From: a virus
Virus record (IMG/VR): IMGVR_UViG_3300046519_000274
Location: 1 to 31,089 of that record
Length of the DNA stretch: 31,089 nt
Strand: one strand, 5' to 3'
A program made the position numbers and the translations under genes. Below, one piece after another: positions 320 to 25,600 of this stretch. Position 1 is the stretch's first letter. Each line of letters begins with the position of its first letter. Under the pieces are notes generated by a model. That model ran no database searches, had not been told where the DNA came from, and was given only the letters and a program-made list of their open reading frames with translations.

Positions 320-1249
320 TTACTTCTTACGATCATTTTCTTTAGCCAACATATGCATTGTCCAGCTATTAATCCGATCTTTGTTGCGATCAGAAGGGTT
401 ATCTTTATGTGAATCGTAAGTTTTGTTGAGTGATTGACGCGAGGGATGTGAACTTTTGAGGATCACACCAGAAAAACTAGAACTATCCACGGCCAAATGT
501 GCCATTTCACCCAGAGCGACGACAACCTCTGAATCTTTAAGTGCCCCATTTATTCGCTCAAGATTCTTTAGGTTGCAAACCTCATTTTTTGTTCCTTCGG
601 TTCTCCCAGTTTTGCCCTTATAATGCACATCCTCTACGGCATTCAGTATGGTGTAATCATCCAATTGGTTAGTCGGAAATTTAGAAGGGCATTTTTCATG
701 CAAGATACTTATGGCACTTTGTAATGTTTTTCCCGTCTGACCAGCAGCAGGTCGATTGGCTATTTCCTCACACTGCCCCGGTGCAGACAAAATAATCGTC
801 GTTTTAATGTCTTCACGATCACCTTTTCTAAATGCAGATGTCGTTTCACTATTTCTTTTCTGCCTTGAGCTTTGACCAGAAGGTTTATTTTGACTCATGG
901 CTCCTACCTTTGATGAAAGCTGTTCTTTTTGAATTACTGACGCAGGCACGATATTTTTTTTCATACTCCGACGTTCTTCGTATTCCGCTTGCTTTTCGGC
1001 GCGAAGACGCTGACGTTCTTCGTATTCCGCTTGCTTAACGGCGCGAAGGCGCTGACGCTCTTCGTATTCCACTTGTTTAACGGCGCGAAGGCGCTGACGT
1101 TCTTCGTATTCCGCTTGTTTAACGGCGCGAAGGCGCTGACGTTCTTCGTATTCCGCTTGCTTTTCGGCGCGAAGGCGATCGCGATCTCCGTAAAAGATGT
1201 CGTGAAGGCCCCAGATAATCCCCCTAATTTTTCCTAACTCCTTGGACAT
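320..1249 (-). CDS. repeat-containing protein with C-terminal uracil-DNA-glycosylase-like domain
   Basis: This is a 309-residue protein. Residues 25-94 are five near-identical 14-residue units of the form RLRAxKQAEYEERQ, highly charged and predicted helical. Residues 95-148 are a polar linker. Residues 150-300 read like the family 4/5 uracil-DNA glycosylase fold: a first motif LSAPGQCEE (residues 154-162) followed by G-x-x-G-x-x-L spacing, then ILNAVEDV, then VVVALGEMAH (242-251), and finally a SSHPSRQ segment (266-272) where family members carry the HPS motif. In the family these positions form the uracil pocket and catalytic loops. The canonical GE(A/G)PG is changed to SAPGQ, so activity is uncertain. 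The ATG at 1249 has no clear Shine-Dalgarno sequence. The gene is AT-richer than the phage genes, suggesting separate acquisition. The domain call comes from motif order by eye; the gene may be an accessory or defence gene. Confidence 0.5.
   Translation of the reverse strand: MSKELGKIRGIIWGLHDIFYGDRDRLRAEKQAEYEERQRLRAVKQAEYEERQRLRAVKQVEYEERQRLRAVKQAEYEERQRLRAEKQAEYEERRSMKKNIVPASVIQKEQLSSKVGAMSQNKPSGQSSRQKRNSETTSAFRKGDREDIKTTIILSAPGQCEEIANRPAAGQTGKTLQSAISILHEKCPSKFPTNQLDDYTILNAVEDVHYKGKTGRTEGTKNEVCNLKNLERINGALKDSEVVVALGEMAHLAVDSSSFSGVILKSSHPSRQSLNKTYDSHKDNPSDRNKDRINSWTMHMLAKENDRKK
971..1182 (-). repeat. five tandem 42-bp coding repeats
   Basis: Five consecutive 42-bp units encode the 14-residue repeats of the UDG-like protein. 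The units differ by only a few bases (for example Glu or Val at the fourth position and one Ala to Val change), so the array is recent or is being homogenised. Because the unit is a multiple of three, changes in copy number keep the frame. Confidence 0.9.
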
Positions 1250-1716
1250 TCATGCTTTAAATTTATGCTTGGGCTATTAAAGACTGTATCCCCGAAAACA
1301 ATCAAACTATTTGACAGCAGAATGAATCACCACCGACCTATCTGGCTTATCGGAGCACCTTATTTTGCCCGATGTCGCTTATCGGGATTTGGCTGCAAAG
1401 GGTCGAATGCGACCCTAAGTGATGAGCTGCCAGAATCCACTACCAAAATGTACTCATCACGTAAAACGCGACATTTAATTATGACGTCGACACGGGGTTG
1501 AGCGGGGATTCTGACCACTGAATCCAAGGATCCAGCCTCAGGAACTCCCCGCAGCCCTCCGCCATTCCCCCATAAATTGGCCCAAGGATTGGCCCAGCAC
1601 TCTTTGGCGTTCTGCCACCTGAAATCCTCAAATCAAAGTCGCCTCGTCGCAATACCCTCGCGAAAATCCGAAGCCTCGATTACTGTATATTCAAACAGTG
1701 CAAAAAAGGCCCAACC
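1250..1716. promoter_or_regulatory. divergent intergenic region, leader of the SOS coiled-coil gene
   Basis: This 467-bp stretch separates the leftward UDG-like gene from the rightward coiled-coil gene. The left 216 bp are AT-rich and unique; I see no gene there. From 1466 onward the sequence is nearly identical to 6377 onward and ends in a LexA box just before the GTG start at 1717. Short frames in this segment exist in both copies but lack ribosome binding sites and differ from each other through frame-breaking changes, so I do not call them. Confidence 0.6.
1683..1698. promoter_or_regulatory. LexA (SOS) box
   Basis: The 16-base site ctgtatattcaaacag matches the CTG-N10-CAG LexA consensus with an AT-rich spacer. 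It ends 18 bases before the GTG start of the coiled-coil gene. The second copy of this gene has an equivalent site at the same place, which supports genuine SOS control rather than chance. Confidence 0.75.
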
Positions 1717-2034
1717 GTGGTCCCCTACGAAATTGAAGTCACCAGTGACTGGCTCGGCTGTCCGACCAGGCTGGAAACCGTCAAGCATTACGCAAGCATG
1801 CTCGAGGAAGATATCCAAGGCCTGAAGCGTCAGCTGCAGGCGGCCAAAAAAAATATCTCCGACTTGGTGATCATGAATGACCAACTTTCTGCAGAGCTGA
1901 AAAAGGCTCGCGCTTGGATGGCTAATCTTGAAGCGGAAACCACCGAGCAGTTGGCTGAGATTCGCAGCCTGTCGATGGTCCGCGACCAAAACGAAAGGCT
2001 GCGCATCGAACTGGACGCGGCCAAGCGTCAGTAG
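1717..2034 (+). CDS. SOS-regulated coiled-coil protein, copy A
   Basis: A 105-residue soluble protein that starts at GTG, as does its paralogue at 6627. The N-terminus (VPYEIEVTSDWLG) is short and conserved. Residues 18-105 are a nearly continuous heptad-rich coiled coil with the conserved stretch ARAWMANLEAETTEQL. There is no signal peptide or membrane segment. A LexA box lies directly upstream, so expression should rise on DNA damage. In this copy no SRAP gene follows; the stop codon at 2034 is one base from the end of the convergent Rz gene at 2036. The family is not one I can name. The link to SRAP in copy B suggests a partner role in DNA-damage handling, which is inference only. Confidence 0.8.
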   Translation: MVPYEIEVTSDWLGCPTRLETVKHYASMLEEDIQGLKRQLQAAKKNISDLVIMNDQLSAELKKARAWMANLEAETTEQLAEIRSLSMVRDQNERLRIELDAAKRQ

Positions 2035-2035
2035 C

Positions 2036-2551
2036 TCAACGACTTACCTCTCTGACAAAAGCCTGGCACGCCGCCAGCGCGATCAGTCCTTGGTCGCCGG
2101 CGTCGGTGATTCCGATAATTCGTTGAGCATGAGCTGGGTCAAGGCAGGCGCGCGCTCCTCCATGAACCACGCCGCCTGTTCCGGTACCGGCTGACACTGA
2201 ACAGCCACTGGCTGAATCCGCAGCATCGAGGAAGACTGACAGCCGCAAATCAGCAGTGGCAAGGCGATCGCGCAGGCGAGCCTGATTGGTTTGAGCATCG
2301 CTCAGTTCCTTGTAGTGGGTTTGTTCGCTGGCTGACAGCCGCTGCTCGAGCGCCAGCCGTTTCTCCTGATCGGTGCGCACCTGGTCAGCGGCGGCGTTGC
2401 TGATAGCGGTCAGATCAGCCTGATGCAGGCCGTTCTGCTCGGCGAGCTGCTTGCTGTAGCGCCAGTCCTGCACCTTCCATGTCCCGCCCACCGCCAGAAG
2501 CAACAGCGCCAGCACGCCAGCCACCGCCAGATCCAACGCCGCGGGACTCAT
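2036..2551 (-). CDS. Rz-like i-spanin, intact copy
   Basis: A 171-residue inner-membrane spanin subunit. One N-terminal membrane segment (residues about 8-24, rich in Leu/Ala/Val) is followed by a long periplasmic coiled coil, the normal plan of lambda Rz. Paired with Rz1, it joins inner and outer membranes and disrupts the outer membrane at the end of lysis. The ATG at 2551 overlaps the endolysin stop as ATGA, so translation is coupled; this fixes the start rather than longer in-frame extensions that run through the endolysin gene. Rz1 is nested in another frame. A decayed homologue lies at 8934-9458. Confidence 0.85.
   Translation of the reverse strand: MSPAALDLAVAGVLALLLLAVGGTWKVQDWRYSKQLAEQNGLHQADLTAISNAAADQVRTDQEKRLALEQRLSASEQTHYKELSDAQTNQARLRDRLATADLRLSVFLDAADSASGCSVSAGTGTGGVVHGGARACLDPAHAQRIIGITDAGDQGLIALAACQAFVREVSR
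2083..2298 (-). CDS. Rz1-like o-spanin lipoprotein, nested in Rz
   Basis: A 71-residue outer-membrane lipoprotein lying wholly inside Rz in a different frame. The signal sequence ends in the lipobox LLICGC, with the acylated Cys at residue 20. The mature part carries the VPEQAAWFMEE segment that corresponds to the proline-rich PPAWIM region of lambda Rz1. The nested architecture is the lambda Rz/Rz1 type. Confidence 0.85.
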   Translation of the reverse strand: MLKPIRLACAIALPLLICGCQSSSMLRIQPVAVQCQPVPEQAAWFMEERAPALTQLMLNELSESPTPATKD

Positions 2552-3081
2552 GCCAGCACCGCCGTCGCCTTGCCCCACAGCTTCAGGCGATCCGCCTTCC
2601 CGTTGAGCCCGCCATTGATCCGGCGGGTGATGGCTTCGAACTTGTCGGCATCGGCCAGGGTGTTGAGCCCATTGGTTGCCCAGAACCATGCCGCTGAAAG
2701 GCAAGCGTACTTCGGCTGCTCCAGCAGTTCGGGTAGGTTGATCAGGTCCAAGTCCAAGGCTTCGCCGCACGATATGTAGTTCGCTCGTCCGGTGATCTGA
2801 ATCAGGCCCCGACCGCGGTATTTGAAGCCGTCACCCGCAACGGTGTTGCCCAGGTTCTTGCGCCCCTCGTACTTTGCTTGCTGGGCAGTTGGCCCCCACA
2901 TTTCACGGACGTAGACCAGTTGGCCAGATTCATGGCCGATCTGGGCAATGAATGCAGCCACGCGCTTGGAGCCAACGATCTGATAGCGCTGCATTGCCGT
3001 GTTGAGTACTGGAACAAAAACGCCGGCTTTGGCGCCGGCGTTCGGGAGGATCTGCAGCAGTTGCTGCGCGGTGATCGGCAT
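2548..3081 (-). CDS. GH19 chitinase-like endolysin
   Basis: A 177-residue glycoside hydrolase family 19 lysozyme that cleaves the glycan backbone of peptidoglycan at lysis. The core GHESG motif carries the probable catalytic Glu51. It is followed by the KYRGRGLIQITGRANY segment typical of GH19 phage endolysins and the C-terminal INGGLNGKADR motif. There is no signal peptide or SAR helix, so a holin is needed for export; none is visible next to it. The ATG at 3081 is chosen because it follows GGAG with good spacing and matches the start of the second copy; the longer frame to 3144 would read through a terminator-like hairpin. Confidence 0.9.
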   Translation of the reverse strand: MPITAQQLLQILPNAGAKAGVFVPVLNTAMQRYQIVGSKRVAAFIAQIGHESGQLVYVREMWGPTAQQAKYEGRKNLGNTVAGDGFKYRGRGLIQITGRANYISCGEALDLDLINLPELLEQPKYACLSAAWFWATNGLNTLADADKFEAITRRINGGLNGKADRLKLWGKATAVLA

Positions 3082-3096
3082 ACTTTTCTCCAGGCG

Positions 3097-3118
3097 AAAA
3101 AATACCGCACTTGGCGGG
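3097..3118 (-). terminator. terminator-like hairpin just upstream of the endolysin RBS
   Basis: On the minus strand a CCGC/GCGG stem is followed by A and six T, then the element CGCCTGGAGA and the endolysin ATG. The stem is short. Comparable hairpin + T-run + TCTGGAGA leaders occur before other genes in this window. Confidence 0.5.
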
Positions 3119-3156
3119 ATCATTAGATAAACTGCGCCATTCACGCATGCTGGCGG

Positions 3157-3213: not shown

Positions 3214-3295
3214 TTTTCCCCGGCAAACTCCGACTCCATGCCAAGCAGGAAAAACTAACAACGAGTGTCGATAAATATTTTTCAGAGGTGTAGCA

Positions 3296-4300
3296 ATGGG
3301 GTTCTATCGACTAATTCTCGCCGTGCTTGTCGCGCTCGGTCACATGGGAATCATGTTTTTTGGTGTTGATCTTGGATATGGCGTTGTTGCGGTAATATCT
3401 TTCCTCATCATCAGCGGTTTTGTCATGACGGCCCTGATCGATAAGAACTACGGGAAAATAAGTAGAATCCCGGCATTCTTCGCTGATAGGGCAATGCGTC
3501 TGTACCCTCAATTCATCTTCTATCTTGCGCTGTCGTCAGTACTTATTTATACAGCGCTTGCCGACAGCCCAGTTCACGAAGCAATAACTGCAGTTAACTT
3601 ATTGGCAACGGTTGCAATGGTTCCGCTCGGACTATATATGTTCGGACTTTCCGATCCAAATATTATCCCGCAGGCGTGGTCTCTCGGTCTTGAGATGTGT
3701 TTCTATCTTGTCATCCCATTCATCTTGATATACCGGGCAAGGCTAGTATTGTTTTATGGATCAATTCTAGTTTTTACCCTTGCATTTTTTGGACATATCC
3801 ACTCCGACTGGTATGGCTACAGGCTCCTTCCGGGAGTTTTATTCATATTCCTCTGTGGCAGCTTCATAAAAAGAGGAAGCGCCTTTGAGAGACTTTCCGT
3901 GCTTGTGGCATGGTGCGTAGCTCTGGCAGGTTGCATTCTTATTGCTAAGGGTTACGCAACGTGGCGGCCCTACAACCTTCAAGTCACGGCCGGCATTGTA
4001 ATCGGTATACCAATGATTATGCTTTTGTCCAGAATTCCATATCACAGGGTAGACGAGTTCCTAGGAAATATAAGCTACGGTGTTTTTCTCAATCATTTCC
4101 TAATCATCTATGCTGGGAAGGCTCTTGGCGTAAGTAAGATAAGCGCAGAGTTGGCAGTTCTATATGTGGCGAGTGCTTTTGTTCTCAGTGGTATTTCTTA
4201 TTATCTGGCCGAGCGCCCAGTGCTCGTACTGAGGAAAAAGCTTAGAGCAAAGTCAGCTCCATCCGTATCGACGCCGACATTAGAGAGCTCTGGACTTTAA
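3296..4300 (+). CDS. acyltransferase-3 family membrane protein (putative O-antigen/polysaccharide acyltransferase)
   Basis: A 334-residue integral membrane protein with about ten hydrophobic segments. It has the acyltransferase-3 (OafA/YrhL) hallmarks: His16 in the first helix (VALGHMG), RAMRLYP after the second segment, PQAWSLGLEMCFYL in the middle, and a final helix followed by ERPV. The family transfers acyl groups to cell-surface sugars at the inner membrane. The gene is AT-richer than the phage genes and opposite to the late operon. It has its own RBS (AGAGGTG) and sits in the slot between endolysin and DUF1353 remnant. This is a typical lysogenic-conversion moron: O-acetylation of LPS would alter phage receptors (inference). 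Confidence 0.85.
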   Translation: MGFYRLILAVLVALGHMGIMFFGVDLGYGVVAVISFLIISGFVMTALIDKNYGKISRIPAFFADRAMRLYPQFIFYLALSSVLIYTALADSPVHEAITAVNLLATVAMVPLGLYMFGLSDPNIIPQAWSLGLEMCFYLVIPFILIYRARLVLFYGSILVFTLAFFGHIHSDWYGYRLLPGVLFIFLCGSFIKRGSAFERLSVLVAWCVALAGCILIAKGYATWRPYNLQVTAGIVIGIPMIMLLSRIPYHRVDEFLGNISYGVFLNHFLIIYAGKALGVSKISAELAVLYVASAFVLSGISYYLAERPVLVLRKKLRAKSAPSVSTPTLESSGL

Positions 4301-4444
4301 GATGACTTTCCGCTTGGAGGGACGAAATACTTCATAACCGCCAGACACAAAAGCCGCCTGTAGCGCGGCTGCGGTGATTATTTTGGAGTTCCAGTAGCTG
4401 CTTGGGTCTGCCAATAAAGGGTCTGCGCGGTGATGAGCGTTCAT
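4280..4444 (-). CDS. small 54-aa hypothetical protein overlapping the acyltransferase 3' end
   Basis: Translation from the ATG at 4444 gives a 54-residue frame with a central segment ITAAALQAAFVSGGYEVF and a basic C-terminus. Support for the start is good: it follows TCTGGAGA, the same RBS element used by the endolysin and DUF1353 genes, and the ATG overlaps the TGA of the upstream DUF1353 remnant as ATGA. The 3' end overlaps the convergent acyltransferase gene by 21 bases, which suggests the acyltransferase was inserted next to it. A hairpin with a TTTT tract lies within the frame. No function is recognised. Confidence 0.4.
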   Translation of the reverse strand: MNAHHRADPLLADPSSYWNSKIITAAALQAAFVSGGYEVFRPSKRKVILKSRAL

Positions 4445-4575
4445 TGATCTCCAGACGAAGAAAACATCGAACGGGTCGGGGTCGTGGTGTAGTGCTTGGC
4501 GCCGCCTATCCTGACGCCGGCCCAGAACAGCCAGGCCCGCCAGCGAGCGAGCGAGCGAGCGACGTTCTTTGTTGG
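4441..4575 (-). pseudogene. 3' remnant of a DUF1353 gene
   Basis: The minus strand encodes RWRAWLFWAGVRIGGAKHY, matching the C-terminus RWRAWLFWVGVRIDGVKRY of the intact DUF1353 protein at 11139-11513. The 5' three quarters are missing. At the break the tetramer agcg is repeated about five times. After the matched part the frame runs on 15 more codons and ends in a TGA overlapping the next ATG. This shows that a second copy of the tail-end locus once existed here. Confidence 0.7.
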
Positions 4576-5269: not shown

Positions 5270-6181
5270 TTACCTAAACGAGTTTTTGGGCTGGTATATT
5301 TTAAAATAATTTCCTGCTAGTTCTTGTGCGTCGGCTAGCTGTGTTTGGGATAGCTGTTTAGCAGCACGATCTCGAAACTTACTGACACTAGAGTCCCCAT
5401 TGGCCGCAGCGACAGAGAACCAGACATAAGCCTGTTTATAATCCTGCGGAACGCCTTTACCGTTGGCGTAGCTAAACCCAAGGAAAGACTGGGCATCAAC
5501 TATGCCCTGCTCGGCGGCCTTGCGGTACCAGATGACTGCCTGCTTATCGTCCTGCGCCACGCCTTCACCTTCAGCATAGCTATTCCCAAGGCTGGACTGG
5601 GCAAAGGCGTCGCCCTGTTCGGCGGCCTTGCGGTGCCAGGCCACCGCCTGCTTCGCATCCTTTGCTACACCTTCACCCAAGCCGTAGAGAAGCCCGAGGA
5701 AAGACTGGGCAGAGGCGTCGCCCTGTTCGGCGGCCTTGCGGTACCAGACCACCGCCTGCTTCGCACTCTTAGCTACGCCCTCACCCTTAAAATATTGCAT
5801 TGCAAGATATACCTGGGCTTTGGCATAACCCTGTTCGGCGGCCTTGCGGTACCAGACCACCGCCTGCTTCGCATCCCGCGCAAGGCCTACCCCGTAGGCG
5901 TAGCAAGACCCAAGGCTGGACTGGGCAGAGGCGTCACCCTGTTCGGCGGCCTTGCGATACCAGGCCACCGCCTGCTTTGCATCTTGCACAACGCCATCGC
6001 CCTTCGAATAACGTTCTCCGAGGTTGAGCTGGGCAGAGGCATCTCCCTGCTCAGCCATTTCCTGAATCGTTATGAGATCCTCGGAGGCATACGCATAGCT
6101 GGCTGACGCTAATAAGCAAAGCGTCAGAAAGAAGGAGCGCGCATAGCGCTCGTAAAGTGGGGTTACGGTTGACTGGTTCAC
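5270..6181 (-). CDS. exported Sel1-repeat (TPR-like) protein
   Basis: A 303-residue protein. An N-terminal signal peptide (hydrophobic core FFLTLCLLASASYAYA, residues about 17-32) is followed by about seven Sel1-like repeats of 36 residues with the pattern A-Q-x-x-L-G-x-x-Y-x-x-G-x-G-V-x-x-D-x-K-Q-A-x-x-W-Y-x-K-A-A-E-Q-G. The family forms right-handed solenoids used for protein binding in the periplasm. The frame opens at a GTG (6181) with a weak AGGGA RBS. The repeats are very similar at DNA level, producing long antisense frames that are not genes. It stands alone between the duplicated blocks, so it is probably cargo. Confidence 0.85.
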   Translation of the reverse strand: MNQSTVTPLYERYARSFFLTLCLLASASYAYASEDLITIQEMAEQGDASAQLNLGERYSKGDGVVQDAKQAVAWYRKAAEQGDASAQSSLGSCYAYGVGLARDAKQAVVWYRKAAEQGYAKAQVYLAMQYFKGEGVAKSAKQAVVWYRKAAEQGDASAQSFLGLLYGLGEGVAKDAKQAVAWHRKAAEQGDAFAQSSLGNSYAEGEGVAQDDKQAVIWYRKAAEQGIVDAQSFLGFSYANGKGVPQDYKQAYVWFSVAAANGDSSVSKFRDRAAKQLSQTQLADAQELAGNYFKIYQPKNSFR

Positions 6182-6592
6182 GTCCCTGCGCTCACTAAAT
6201 TAAAAAAGAGCCCGAGGTTAATCGATAGAGGCTATTGGCGCATTAAAATAGGGCTCTGCGCTTGATTGGAACCATAGATTTACCATGAATCCCGTTATGC
6301 GCACCCCTCGCTCGCTTACCTTGGCTCGGTTTACCGACCGCTATATTGGGTCGACTGCAGCCGTTCTAGTGGATAGACGCGACATTTAATTATGACGTCG
6401 ACACGGGGTTGAGCGGGGATTCTGACCACTGAATCCAAGGATCCAGCCTCAGGAATTCCCCGCAGCCCTCCGCCATTCCCCATAAATTGGCCCATAAATT
6501 GGCCCAGCCCTCTTTGGCGTTCTGCCACCTGAAATCCTCAAATCAAAGTCGCCTCGTCGCAATACCCTCGCGAAAATCCGAAGCCCCGACTA

Positions 6593-6626: not shown

Positions 6627-6947
6627 GTGGACCCCTACGAAATCGAAGACACCAGTGATTGGCTCGGCAGTCCGACCAGGCTGGAAACCGTCAAGCATTA
6701 CGCCCATATGCTCGAGGAGGATATCGACGAGCTGAGGCGGCAATTGCATGTGGCGAAAGAAAACATTTTCACCCTTGTCGAAATGAACGACCAGCTGTCT
6801 GCCGAACTCCATAAAAAGCGGGCATGGATGGCGAACCTGGAAGCGGAAACCACCGAGCAGCTTTCCCAGATCCAAAGTCTGACGCTGGTCTTGGATCAAA
6901 AAGAAAAGATCATTCGCGAGCTGCAAGCGTGCAATCAGAGGGGCTGA
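6627..6947 (+). CDS. SOS-regulated coiled-coil protein, copy B
   Basis: A 106-residue paralogue of the protein at 1717-2034, with the same GTG start and N-terminal pattern PYEIEDTSDWLG. The coiled coil spans residues about 18-102 with the shared RAWMANLEAETTEQL segment. The stop lies two bases before the ATG of the SRAP gene, so the pair is a tight operon under the LexA box at 6593. The tail of the protein differs most from copy A. Pairing with SRAP suggests that it acts in, or scaffolds, the response to abasic or damaged DNA; this is inference. Confidence 0.85.
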   Translation: MDPYEIEDTSDWLGSPTRLETVKHYAHMLEEDIDELRRQLHVAKENIFTLVEMNDQLSAELHKKRAWMANLEAETTEQLSQIQSLTLVLDQKEKIIRELQACNQRG

Positions 6948-6949
6948 AC

Positions 6950-7645
6950 ATGTGCGGACGACTTTCTCAATACGATGGCATTCACGACTTCGTGGCGGCA
7001 CTCAGCATGCCCAACCCTCTGGTAAACAGCGCTGGCGATCATCCGTTCGAGCGGTATAACGCCGCCCCGACAACCCAGCTCGCCATCTTTCACCAGGAAG
7101 GTGAATACCTGCACGCTGACATGGTTCGCTGGGGATGGCGCCCGCATTGGGCCAAGGATCGCGCAGCACCGATCAATGCCAGGGTGGAAAAAGTCGCCCA
7201 CGGCCCGTTCTTCCGTGCCATCTGGCCGCACCGGGCAATCATCGCGATCAACAACTGGTTTGAATGGGTGGATGAAGGCGGACCGAAAAAGCAGCCGTAC
7301 CTGATCCGCAGCCGAGACCGGGCGCCGATATTGTGCGCTGCGATCGGCCAATACCCGAACGCCGAGCATGAGCCGAGTGAGCATGACGGCTTCGTCATCA
7401 TCACCGCCGACAGCGCCGGTGGCATGGTGGACATACACGACCGACGGCCAGTGACGCTATCGCCTGAACTGGCTCGAGAATGGCTCGACCCGGCCACGCC
7501 AAAGGAGCGCGCCGAACATATGGTGATGCACCAGGGCGAGCCAACTGAGGCGTTCGAGTGGTTCAAGGTGGATCGCGCGATTGGCAACGTGCGCAATCAG
7601 GGTCCCGACCTGATAAAGCCGGCCGAGGAAAGCGGCTTGTTCTAA
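6950..7645 (+). CDS. SRAP-family SOS response-associated protein (YedK/HMCES-like)
   Basis: A 231-residue SRAP protein that covalently traps abasic sites in single-stranded DNA through Cys2 and protects them. All key residues are present: MCGR at the start (Cys2 after Met removal), RYNAAPT at 36-41, WGW at 61-63, Asn76 in INAR, Glu105 in NNWFEW and His163 in DIHDRRPV, at almost the same positions as E. coli YedK. Length is normal for the family. The ATG at 6950 is required to place Cys at position 2; an upstream in-frame extension through the coiled-coil gene is not real. It shares the LexA-controlled operon with the coiled-coil gene, and its 3' end overlaps the convergent gene at 7642. Confidence 0.95.
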   Translation: MCGRLSQYDGIHDFVAALSMPNPLVNSAGDHPFERYNAAPTTQLAIFHQEGEYLHADMVRWGWRPHWAKDRAAPINARVEKVAHGPFFRAIWPHRAIIAINNWFEWVDEGGPKKQPYLIRSRDRAPILCAAIGQYPNAEHEPSEHDGFVIITADSAGGMVDIHDRRPVTLSPELAREWLDPATPKERAEHMVMHQGEPTEAFEWFKVDRAIGNVRNQGPDLIKPAEESGLF

Positions 7646-8933: not shown

Positions 8934-9458
8934 CTATCGCGAAACTTCCCGCACATACGCCTGGCACGCCGCCAGGGCAATCAATCCTTGGTCGCCGGTG
9001 TCGGTGATGGCGACAATTCGATGAGCATGCGCTGGGTCAAGTCGGGCGCGCGCTCCTCCATGAGCCACGCCGCTAGCTTCGGCACCGGCGCGCATTGAAC
9101 AGCCACTGGCTGAGCCCTCGGCAAGGAGGACTGACAGCCGCAAATCAGAAGTAGCAAGGCGATCGCGCAGGCGAGAAATATTTTTCTGTGCATCACTAAA
9201 TTCCTTGAAATACGTTTCGTCTATCACTTGAAGACGGTCTTCCAAGGCTTTACGTCTGCCCTTCTCCGCCTCCTGCCTATCGATAACAGCCAAGGCTGAA
9301 ACCTCTCGTTCGCGCTGATACGCCGCTGCCTGCCCGGCTAGCTCGGCACGGTAGTGGTTGGCCTGCCACTACCAGGCCATCCAAGCACTAAGAGCCATAA
9401 GGGAGCCCCCTATTGCGAGCACCATCCGAACCCTGAGCCACACAATCGAGCCGATCAC
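8934..9458 (-). pseudogene. Rz-like i-spanin interrupted by an amber codon
   Basis: This is the second Rz copy. The GTG at 9458 overlaps the endolysin stop (GTGA) and the frame encodes the N-terminal membrane segment (residues about 4-29). Codon 30 (9369-9371) is TAG, after AWMAW and before WQANHYRAEL. The rest of the frame, including the C-terminus that matches the intact copy, is open. Related Rz proteins often have Gln here, so a CAG to TAG change is likely. Unless the amber codon is suppressed, no full spanin is made. Confidence 0.8.
8981..9196 (-). CDS. Rz1-like o-spanin lipoprotein, second copy
   Basis: A 71-residue nested lipoprotein frame, open in full, homologous to the Rz1 at 2083-2298. 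It keeps the lipobox LLICGC and the VPKLAAWLMEE segment. It is embedded in the interrupted Rz gene, so whether it is still translated is uncertain, but its own frame has no damage. Confidence 0.7.
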   Translation of the reverse strand: MMHRKIFLACAIALLLLICGCQSSLPRAQPVAVQCAPVPKLAAWLMEERAPDLTQRMLIELSPSPTPATKD

Positions 9459-9988
9459 GCCAACACCGACGAGGCTTTTGCCCACAACTTCAACCGGTCT
9501 GCCTGGCCATTGAGCCCGCCGTTGATCCGCCGCGTGATGGTTTCGAACTTGTCGGCATCGGCCAGGGTGTTCAGCCCATTCATTGCCCAGAACCAAGCGG
9601 GCGACAGGCAGGCGTACTTCGGCTGCTCCAGCAGTTCGGGTCGGTTGATCAGGTCCAGACCAAGGGCTTCGCCGCACGCCGCGTAGTTCGCCCGGCCGGT
9701 GATCTGAATCAGGCCACGCCGCGGTACTTCTGGCCGTCACCCGCGACGGAGTTGCCCAGGTCTTTGCGGCCTTCGTACTTGACTTGCTGGGTGGTTGGCC
9801 CCCAAATCTCACGGACATAGACCAACTGGCCAGACTCATGGCCGATCTGGGCAATGAACGCGGCCACGCGTTTGGAGCCGACAATCTGATAGCGCTGCAT
9901 TGCCGTGTTGAGGACAGGAACAAAAAACGCCAGCTTTTGCGCTGGCGTTCGGAAGGATCTGCAGCTGCTGCTGCTGGGTGATGGGCAT
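9455..9988 (-). pseudogene. GH19 endolysin with two frameshifts
   Basis: The second endolysin copy starts MPITQQQQLQILPN at the ATG 9988 after TCTGGAGA. At 9922-9927 a run of six A (plus strand) replaces the five in the intact gene and shifts the frame after residue 22. The middle part (MQRYQIVGSKRVAAFIAQIG, GHESG) is then in another frame. A second one-base loss near 9716-9720 in the RGRGL segment shifts again. The 3' end still reaches the TGA at 9455. The first change is in a homopolymer and could be a sequencing error; the second is not. Confidence 0.85.
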
Positions 9989-10007
9989 TCGTTTTCTCCA
10001 GACGATA

Positions 10008-10030
10008 GAAAGCCCGCACAGTGGCGGGCT
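10008..10030 (-). terminator. terminator-like hairpin upstream of the endolysin pseudogene
   Basis: On the minus strand a 7-bp stem AGCCCGC/GCGGGCT with a short loop is followed by TTTC, then CGTCTGGAGA and the ATG. It is homologous to the leader of DUF1353 (shared TCAGCTAT just before the stem). Confidence 0.55.
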
Positions 10031-10190
10031 GGATAGCTGAAATTTGTAGCCGATAGTCGTGGTGATTCAATACAACGGCATTGATATCATTCCCCCCACG
10101 TTCTCCATGTATTAAGGGATGCGGGAGAAAATAGTAGCCTTGACGACCACGAACCGTCAGGGCTTCGCCTTTTCCAATCCCCAGACGAAG

Positions 10191-11513: not shown

Positions 11514-11530
11514 GAGTTTTCTCCAGACGA

Positions 11531-11555
11531 AAAAAAGCCCGCTCTATAGCGGGCT
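11531..11555 (-). terminator. terminator hairpin upstream of the DUF1353 RBS
   Basis: On the minus strand a perfect 8-bp stem AGCCCGCT/AGCGGGCT with a 4-base loop is followed by seven T, then CGTCTGGAGA and the DUF1353 ATG. It is the strongest example of the recurrent leader. Confidence 0.75.
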
Positions 11556-22068: not shown

Positions 22069-22084
22069 TGCTTTTCTCCAGGCG

Positions 22085-22107
22085 AAAAAAAACCGCACAA
22101 GGCGGTT
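22085..22107 (-). terminator. terminator-like hairpin between chaperone and tape measure genes
   Basis: On the minus strand an ACCGC/GCGGT stem is followed by a run of eight T, then CGCCTGGAGAAAAGC and the tape-measure ATG. Two bases of the stop region separate it from the chaperone extension. Confidence 0.7.
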
Positions 22108-25156: not shown

Positions 25157-25540
25157 TCAGGCCTTAGGGTCGGTATCAGTCGCCAATCCCTTTGCGATCA
25201 ACAAAAGCGCTTCGTGTTTAGGTGAGGCATACCCCGCACCGCCAGCTTGACGGATTTCCTTTCCGTCCAGGTAACTGCGGACTGGATAGATCACCAACTG
25301 ATTGCAAGAGGTAACAGCGTCAGCGTCAGCGTCAGCGTCAGCGTCAGCGTCAGCGTCAGCGTCAGCGTCAGCGTCAGCGTCAAATGCTTGTGGGCTGTGC
25401 GGCGGCGAATCAACGACCGCTGAAACAACCGTAGAAGTCTGAGCGTCCACGGGAGCAGAATTGAAGAGTGTTCCCTCAACTGTATCAACCGCACCAACGG
25501 GGTCGGTATCTGCGGGTCTTGCGTGGGGTCCGCGGGCCAT
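25157..25540 (-). CDS. phage protein with Asp-Ala tandem repeat
   Basis: A 127-residue protein between major capsid and connector. Residues about 55-76 are eleven consecutive Asp-Ala dipeptides. The C-terminal 45 residues (NQLVIYPVRSYLDGKEIRQA) look folded. The ATG at 25540 is preferred because GGAGG precedes it by 7 bases; an in-frame TTG at 25597 would add 19 residues through a hairpin. The acidic flexible repeat could be a linker. Position suggests a capsid- or connector-associated accessory protein; the function is unknown. Confidence 0.7.
   Translation of the reverse strand: MARGPHARPADTDPVGAVDTVEGTLFNSAPVDAQTSTVVSAVVDSPPHSPQAFDADADADADADADADADADADAVTSCNQLVIYPVRSYLDGKEIRQAGGAGYASPKHEALLLIAKGLATDTDPKA
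25315..25380. repeat. eleven tandem CAGCGT hexamers
   Basis: An uninterrupted array of eleven 6-bp units with no point change, encoding (Asp-Ala)11 on the minus strand. Perfect simple repeats like this are prone to slippage; the hexamer unit keeps the frame. Confidence 0.95.
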
Positions 25541-25600
25541 TCTCGTGCCTCCAAAAGAGTTAGAGCCGCCTTTGTACGGCTCTCCTTGATTGGTCAAATT

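Follow-up and report, generated by a model that had tools for sequence, protein, structure and literature searches.

A prophage-carried protein of the uracil-DNA glycosylase fold with a helical repeat arm, possibly a Brig1-like base-excision defence protein

What might a uracil-DNA glycosylase (UDG)-like protein with a long charged extension be doing on a phage? The gene in question lies near the start of a 31-kb IMG/VR contig related to D3-like Pseudomonas siphophages (record IMGVR_UViG_3300046519_000274; all 31,089 nucleotides were analyzed and are referred to here as the window), and its GC content is 44%, against 58% for window positions 10001-31089. The features discussed below are collected in Table 1. 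An initial annotation of the locus had proposed five near-identical 42-bp units ahead of the domain, and such an array was indeed recovered by TRF at 970-1177 (5.0 copies, 93% matches, no indels, score 353), in register and as the sole array reported there. The corresponding protein units (residues 23-92) consist of RDRLRAEKQAEYEE, three units of the form RQRLRAVKQ(A/V)EYEE and then RQRLRAEKQAEYEE, and unit comparison found 79-100% likeness between the five. An AF2 model of the 309-aa protein, built from five sequences, predicted a single helix over residues 2-99 that includes the repeat array (pLDDT about 92-95 over most of it), a low-confidence linker at residues about 100-134 and a UDG-like domain with pLDDT mostly 80-90.

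Table 1. Coordinates of features in the window, and genes near relatives of the UDG-like protein.
Locus	Feature	Position	Strand	Evidence or remark
Window	UDG-like gene, 309-aa protein (N-terminal helical repeat array and UDG-superfamily domain)	320-1249	-	Intact ORF; Pfam PF03167; AF2 model
Window	Five 14-residue repeats (residues 23-92), 42-bp units	974-1183	-	TRF; unit comparison; AF2 helix
Window	UDG-superfamily domain (residues about 135-309)	320-847	-	N203 and H268 kept; S155 for Glu; A168 for Phe
Window	105-bp site copy 1, sharp left edge, borders slot with UDG-like gene	1466-1570		99% identical to 6377-6481
Window	Small coiled-coil-like ORF after site copy 1	1717-2034	+	Paralogue at 6627-6947
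Window	Sel1-repeat protein, second-slot cargo	5270-6181	-	PF08238 E=3.4e-57
Window	105-bp site copy 2, borders slot with Sel1 gene	6377-6481
L002 (Sphingomonas plasmid)	MkoA of Mokosh, split across three ORFs			185 bp from UDG-like gene
L003	Protease			Moderate matches to defence proteases
L006 (repeat-bearing, Methylococcaceae)	Truncated type I methylase			Just upstream
L008 (Roseivivax)	DarT-like gene, then HNH/ZorE-like gene		same strand (DarT-like gene)	DarT-like gene (PF14487 E=4e-9) 65 bp upstream
L009	Candidate-defence matches			Weak matches only
L040	Dsr1-type SIR2; DUF1643 gene			SIR2 about 1 kb off; DUF1643 gene in locus
L041	DISARM DrmD and DrmMII; HipA-like and Fic genes			In locus; HipA by sequence only
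L042	Type I HsdR, HsdS			HsdR 157 bp off, HsdS next
L043	PDC-S46 ATPase; integrase-like gene			ATPase 122 bp off; integrase-like gene close by (sequence only)
L044	SspA, SspB, SspC
L045	GmrSD-type restriction protein			777 bp off

The helix may act as a tether or oligomerisation arm, which would raise local binding to DNA or to a partner. Most relatives lack it, and it is therefore probably dispensable for the core chemistry. A simple salt-bridge test gave no support to an array of the classic single alpha-helix (ER/K) type, with i to i+4 pairs no commoner than in shuffled sequences. Two matches to the repeats were also set aside: a PHROG 'tail protein' match (E=0.011) falls on the charged repeats and was disregarded, and a match to a Klebsiella plasmid involves charged repeat only, outside annotated genes, and was taken as low-complexity similarity.

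Assignment of the C-terminal domain to the UDG fold is near certain. The 309-aa protein matches PF03167 (UDG) in Pfam at E=5.9e-6, scoring 26.8 bits where the gathering cut-off is 24.3, and a seven-sequence profile built from it together with relatives retrieved the Thermus family-4 UDG 1ui0 at E=1.5e-5. Foldseek with the AF2 model returned 35 PDB matches at E<=1e-3, every one of the UDG superfamily and with UdgX at the top; VIA-align superposed the model on UdgX with a Z of 13.2 over 153 aligned residues (rmsd 3.9), Z being about 12 for family 4, 9.9 for MUG and about 9 for TDG. Furthermore, profile-profile comparison by hhalign with canonical UDGs from the genomes of two relatives gave a probability of 97% (E=5e-11). 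These profile, structural and profile-profile matches together make the fold secure, and the superfamily assignment first read from the motifs was not refuted by them. No match to the UDG-like protein was obtained with NCBIfam or PADLOC models. The motif order on which that reading was based is also correct (SAPGQ at 155-159, GQTGKTL at 170-176, ILNAV at 201-205, VVVALGEMAH at 242-251 and SSHPS at 266-270).

The active site departs from that of UdgX, in which roles have been described for residues E52, F65, N91 and H178 and for the KRRIH loop, and in which the E52A substitution caused a significant drop in activity (PMC10359453; PMC10776899). Here APGQCEEIANRPAAG aligns gaplessly with UdgX QPGDKEDLAGLPFVG, placing Ser155 at the position of the catalytic E52 (the Glu of GE(A/G)PG) and Ala168 at that of the base-stacking F65. 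The alteration of GE(A/G)PG that had been suspected is thus real; motif A reads L-S155-A-P-G, with the spacing of PG-x2-E kept as in UdgX and family 4. Glu occupies this position in none of the clade members aligned: members of the window type have SAPG or AAPG as motif A, and those from Rhodobacterales have GACPG. By motif and family alignment, N203 takes the place of UdgX N91 and H268 that of H178, and both of these base-contacting residues are invariant in a ten-member alignment. The whole protein has three cysteines only (C160, C187 and C225) and hence no four-cysteine [4Fe-4S] site, about 10 residues fewer follow the NAV motif in this stretch than in UdgX, and the KRRIH sequence of the UdgX R-loop, with its cross-linking His, is absent from the protein. 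With the base-contacting Asn and His kept and both the acid and the stacking ring gone, the alignments leave open either a changed substrate or lost catalysis. This combination offers a sharp handle on what the pocket accepts.

The main rival to a Brig1-like role in base excision is a catalytically dead protein of the UDG fold. Such a protein would bind a flipped base or nucleic acid, serving as sensor, adaptor or inhibitor, and the helix would be its partner-binding arm. Given Ser in place of E52, Ala in place of F65 and the loss of activity in UdgX E52A, catalysis could be lost; the Fe-S cysteines are gone as well, and the long modelled helix would suit a role in interaction. Against this, N203 and H268 have been kept across the clade, and the Glu is dispensable in some UDG families, family 5 being one that is active in its absence. 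Motif A of family 2 is GINPG, so that this family too functions without it (PMC10359453; PMC10776899). We therefore regard a dead protein as unlikely, while giving it more weight than any of the other alternatives considered below.

The closest relative is a homolog in a Methylococcaceae MAG (L006), about 55% identical in the UDG domain. Similar 14-residue repeats (e.g., ERQRERAIKQAEYEE) lie upstream of it in frame and are interrupted by a single in-frame TGA; compared with the window protein, its repeats are more numerous and less regular, and it has an N-terminal GHYRNG segment. Judging from these sequences, the repeat-UDG fusion is common to two lineages. The repeat extension had been flagged as abnormal for a UDG, but the Methylococcaceae relative shows that it is not a one-off. 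Relatives without repeats occur on plasmids of Sphingomonas, Salipiger and Alloyangia and in genomes of Rhodobacterales and Methylococcales. The Rhodobacterales and Sphingomonas relatives (L002-L004, L007-L009, L040-L044 and L047) belong to the same clade at about 26-33% identity, and the Rhodobacterales members combine the motif GACPG with a retained Phe (RPFAG or RPFVG), unlike Ala168 of the window protein.

In the phylogenetic tree the clade was split from two canonical UDGs with support of 100/99, and the window protein and the Methylococcaceae homolog were sisters (92/87), with several other rows long-branched. The assignment to family 4/5 in the initial annotation therefore stands at the level of the superfamily, and the tree points to a rare, divergent lineage beside family 4/UdgX that is neither family itself. 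Relatives were found through plasmids and an alignment query; full-protein or small-alignment searches of viral contigs, GTDB contigs and phage records returned none. Counting genomes already known as carriers, clade members were present in 1/369 genomes at class level, 8/390 in the order of G003, 3/201 in the order of G001 and 1/398 at phylum level. No database family or paper on the clade or on the repeat-UDG architecture was found in the collections and open-access literature searched, and the clade is apparently undescribed so far.

This distribution bears on whether the protein is an ordinary repair glycosylase, removing uracil or a deaminated base for phage or host. The UDG fold itself would fit such a role, but the genomes of relatives have a separate canonical family-4 UDG, the clade is patchy and rare even with known carriers included in the counts, and its setting is one of mobile and defence loci. 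A repair function is thus improbable.

Within the window, the UDG-like gene lies directly left of the first 105-bp copy, as the Sel1-repeat gene lies left of the second. The left edge of the site is common to three other IMG/VR contigs, where the slot holds a DUF1643 gene (L021), a 140-aa protein (L020) or a small lipoprotein-looking ORF (L025). In the sister phages L021 and L024 an integrase gene is found on the far side of the equivalent slot. From this arrangement the UDG-like gene looks like the filling of a variable cargo slot towards the end of the phage that carries the integrase, and the best explanation is that a Pseudomonas siphovirus prophage carries it as accessory cargo, in line with the mobile setting originally suggested. 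Alternatively, the 105-bp sequence may serve as an attachment site, and the gene would then possibly sit just outside the prophage in host DNA, an idea weakened by the position of the integrase in L021 and L024. Of the window genes tested, none was recognised as a known defence gene.

Several other features of the window were recorded. A lysis cassette (Rz-like plus GH19-type endolysin) occurs twice, at 2046-3144 and 8944-10070, with 81-87% DNA identity between the blocks, and the second endolysin copy is apparently frame-broken. The phage also carries an SRAP/YedK-family gene at 6950-7645 (+; PF02586 E=5.3e-46), whose region has an 89% DNA match in the sister phage (L024 2349-3837); relatives of SRAP/YedK shield abasic sites. 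The sequence TTTTTCGTCTGGAGAAAA appears five times on the minus strand with <=3 mismatches (3084-3101, 4445-4462, 9992-10009, 11517-11534 and 22072-22089), where 0.03 copies are expected by chance; several copies stand just before ORF starts, and the element is possibly a terminator plus ribosome-binding unit. A perfect (CAGCGT) hexamer repeat at 25315-25382 (11.3 copies) lies inside an ORF at 25157-25597 (-) near the head genes and encodes an Ala-Asp run.

At most loci examined, relatives adjoin or lie near defence or candidate-defence genes (Table 1); the neighbors were chosen by eye ahead of the PADLOC scan, and this is therefore an association and not a measured enrichment. In three loci (L041, L042 and L044) a 95%-identical segment with the UDG-like gene is adjoined by three different defence systems. 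Among the neighbor proteins tried, none had a defence match in L004 and L047, and in L046 a cyclase-domain match to PycC only was obtained, with no recognised defence neighbor. As a control, the canonical family-4 UDGs from the genomes of two relatives adjoin pyrB/LysE and ccmA-ccmB/rimI, and no comparable PADLOC matches were found around those two genes. The earlier suggestion of a defence protein thus gains from the neighborhoods of relatives, which connect the clade to defence, and not from the genes tested in the window. In the open-access literature we found no paper linking Mokosh with a UDG.

Two of these loci have further points of note. In the Dsr1 locus L040, a 364-aa protein encoded at 3264-4355 (+) carries TPG and PHPSG motifs and adjoins the clade member and the DUF1643 gene; no Pfam match was found for it, and by its motifs it could be another UDG-like protein. 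DUF1643 genes are situated both in the equivalent phage slot (L021 1603-2172, -) and beside this relative (L040 1570-2049, -). A UDG fold for DUF1643 was unsupported, with hhalign probabilities of 10% and 0.1% and an AF2 pLDDT of 44, too low for a structure search. In Roseivivax (L008 900-2263), the DarT-like and UDG-like genes share one strand with 65 bp between them, possibly as a two-gene unit.

A counter-defence or superinfection role against host defence, acting for instance on modified host DNA or restriction products, would agree with a phage-borne gene whose relatives adjoin DNA-modification-based systems. Most relatives, however, adjoin defence genes in chromosomes or plasmids, a setting in which counter-defence is less expected, and we consider such a role quite improbable. 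That the protein partners a DNA-modifying toxin, stripping ADP-ribosylated bases made by a DarT-like enzyme, is suggested by the Roseivivax gene pair, but this is one locus only, with no DarT among the examined neighbors of other relatives or in the window, and the idea deserves very little credence.

The best single explanation is that the window protein is a prophage-carried, Brig1-like base-excision defence protein, because this would account for the fold, the retained Asn and His, the presumably widened pocket, the mobility and the defence neighborhoods; by analogy we hold it as the leading possibility, at slightly under an even chance. Brig1 and Brig3 are UDG-type enzymes that protect bacteria against phages by removing modified bases from the phage DNA (PMC11078745; PMC13160076). 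Compared by description and not by sequence, the likeness lies in the UDG type and the altered active-site residues (PMC11078745; PMC13160076). Brig1 and Brig3 occur in defence islands, with Brig1 homologs near SIR2 and BREX/Pgl genes, and in the accessible text no helix like the repeat helix of the window protein is described for either (PMC11078745; PMC13160076). As for location, many clade relatives have adjoining defence genes, as picked by eye, and the window copy sits in a prophage slot. UdgX and family-4 UDGs (UDGa, PF03167) share with the protein the fold (Z about 12-13), the motif order, the motif-3 Asn and the HPS motif. It differs from them in having Ser/Ala for the Glu of GE(A/G)PG and Ala for Phe, in lacking the Fe-S cysteines and the KRRIH loop, and in its N-terminal repeat helix and genomic setting. 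DefensePredictor lists a UDG-containing candidate, unvalidated (PMC13092281).

Under a Brig1-like mechanism, the domain would flip a non-canonical, probably bulky base from invading phage DNA into a pocket widened by the change of Phe to Ala, and N203 and H268 would weaken the glycosidic bond of the flipped base. The abasic sites left behind would block phage replication, as with Brig1 and Brig3, and a lysogen could thereby be protected through excision of unusual bases carried in the DNA of rival phages.

Extending this to the whole clade is more tentative. Its members may together make up a novel antiviral family of DNA glycosylases, with (S/A)(A/C)PG replacing GE(A/G)PG as their hallmark. 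They would keep company with many defence systems based on DNA modification and would hit phages whose hypermodified DNA escapes those systems, the prophage version with its helical repeat arm guarding lysogens; we put this proposal appreciably below an even chance. In the papers found, Brig1 and Brig3 are the UDG-type enzymes for which anti-phage defence through base excision has been demonstrated to date. If the proposal is true, a UDG-fold lineage beside DISARM, Ssp, type I RM, GmrSD, Mokosh and Dsr1, and also on a prophage, would widen base-excision defence, and the clade would supply candidate enzymes with new base specificities.
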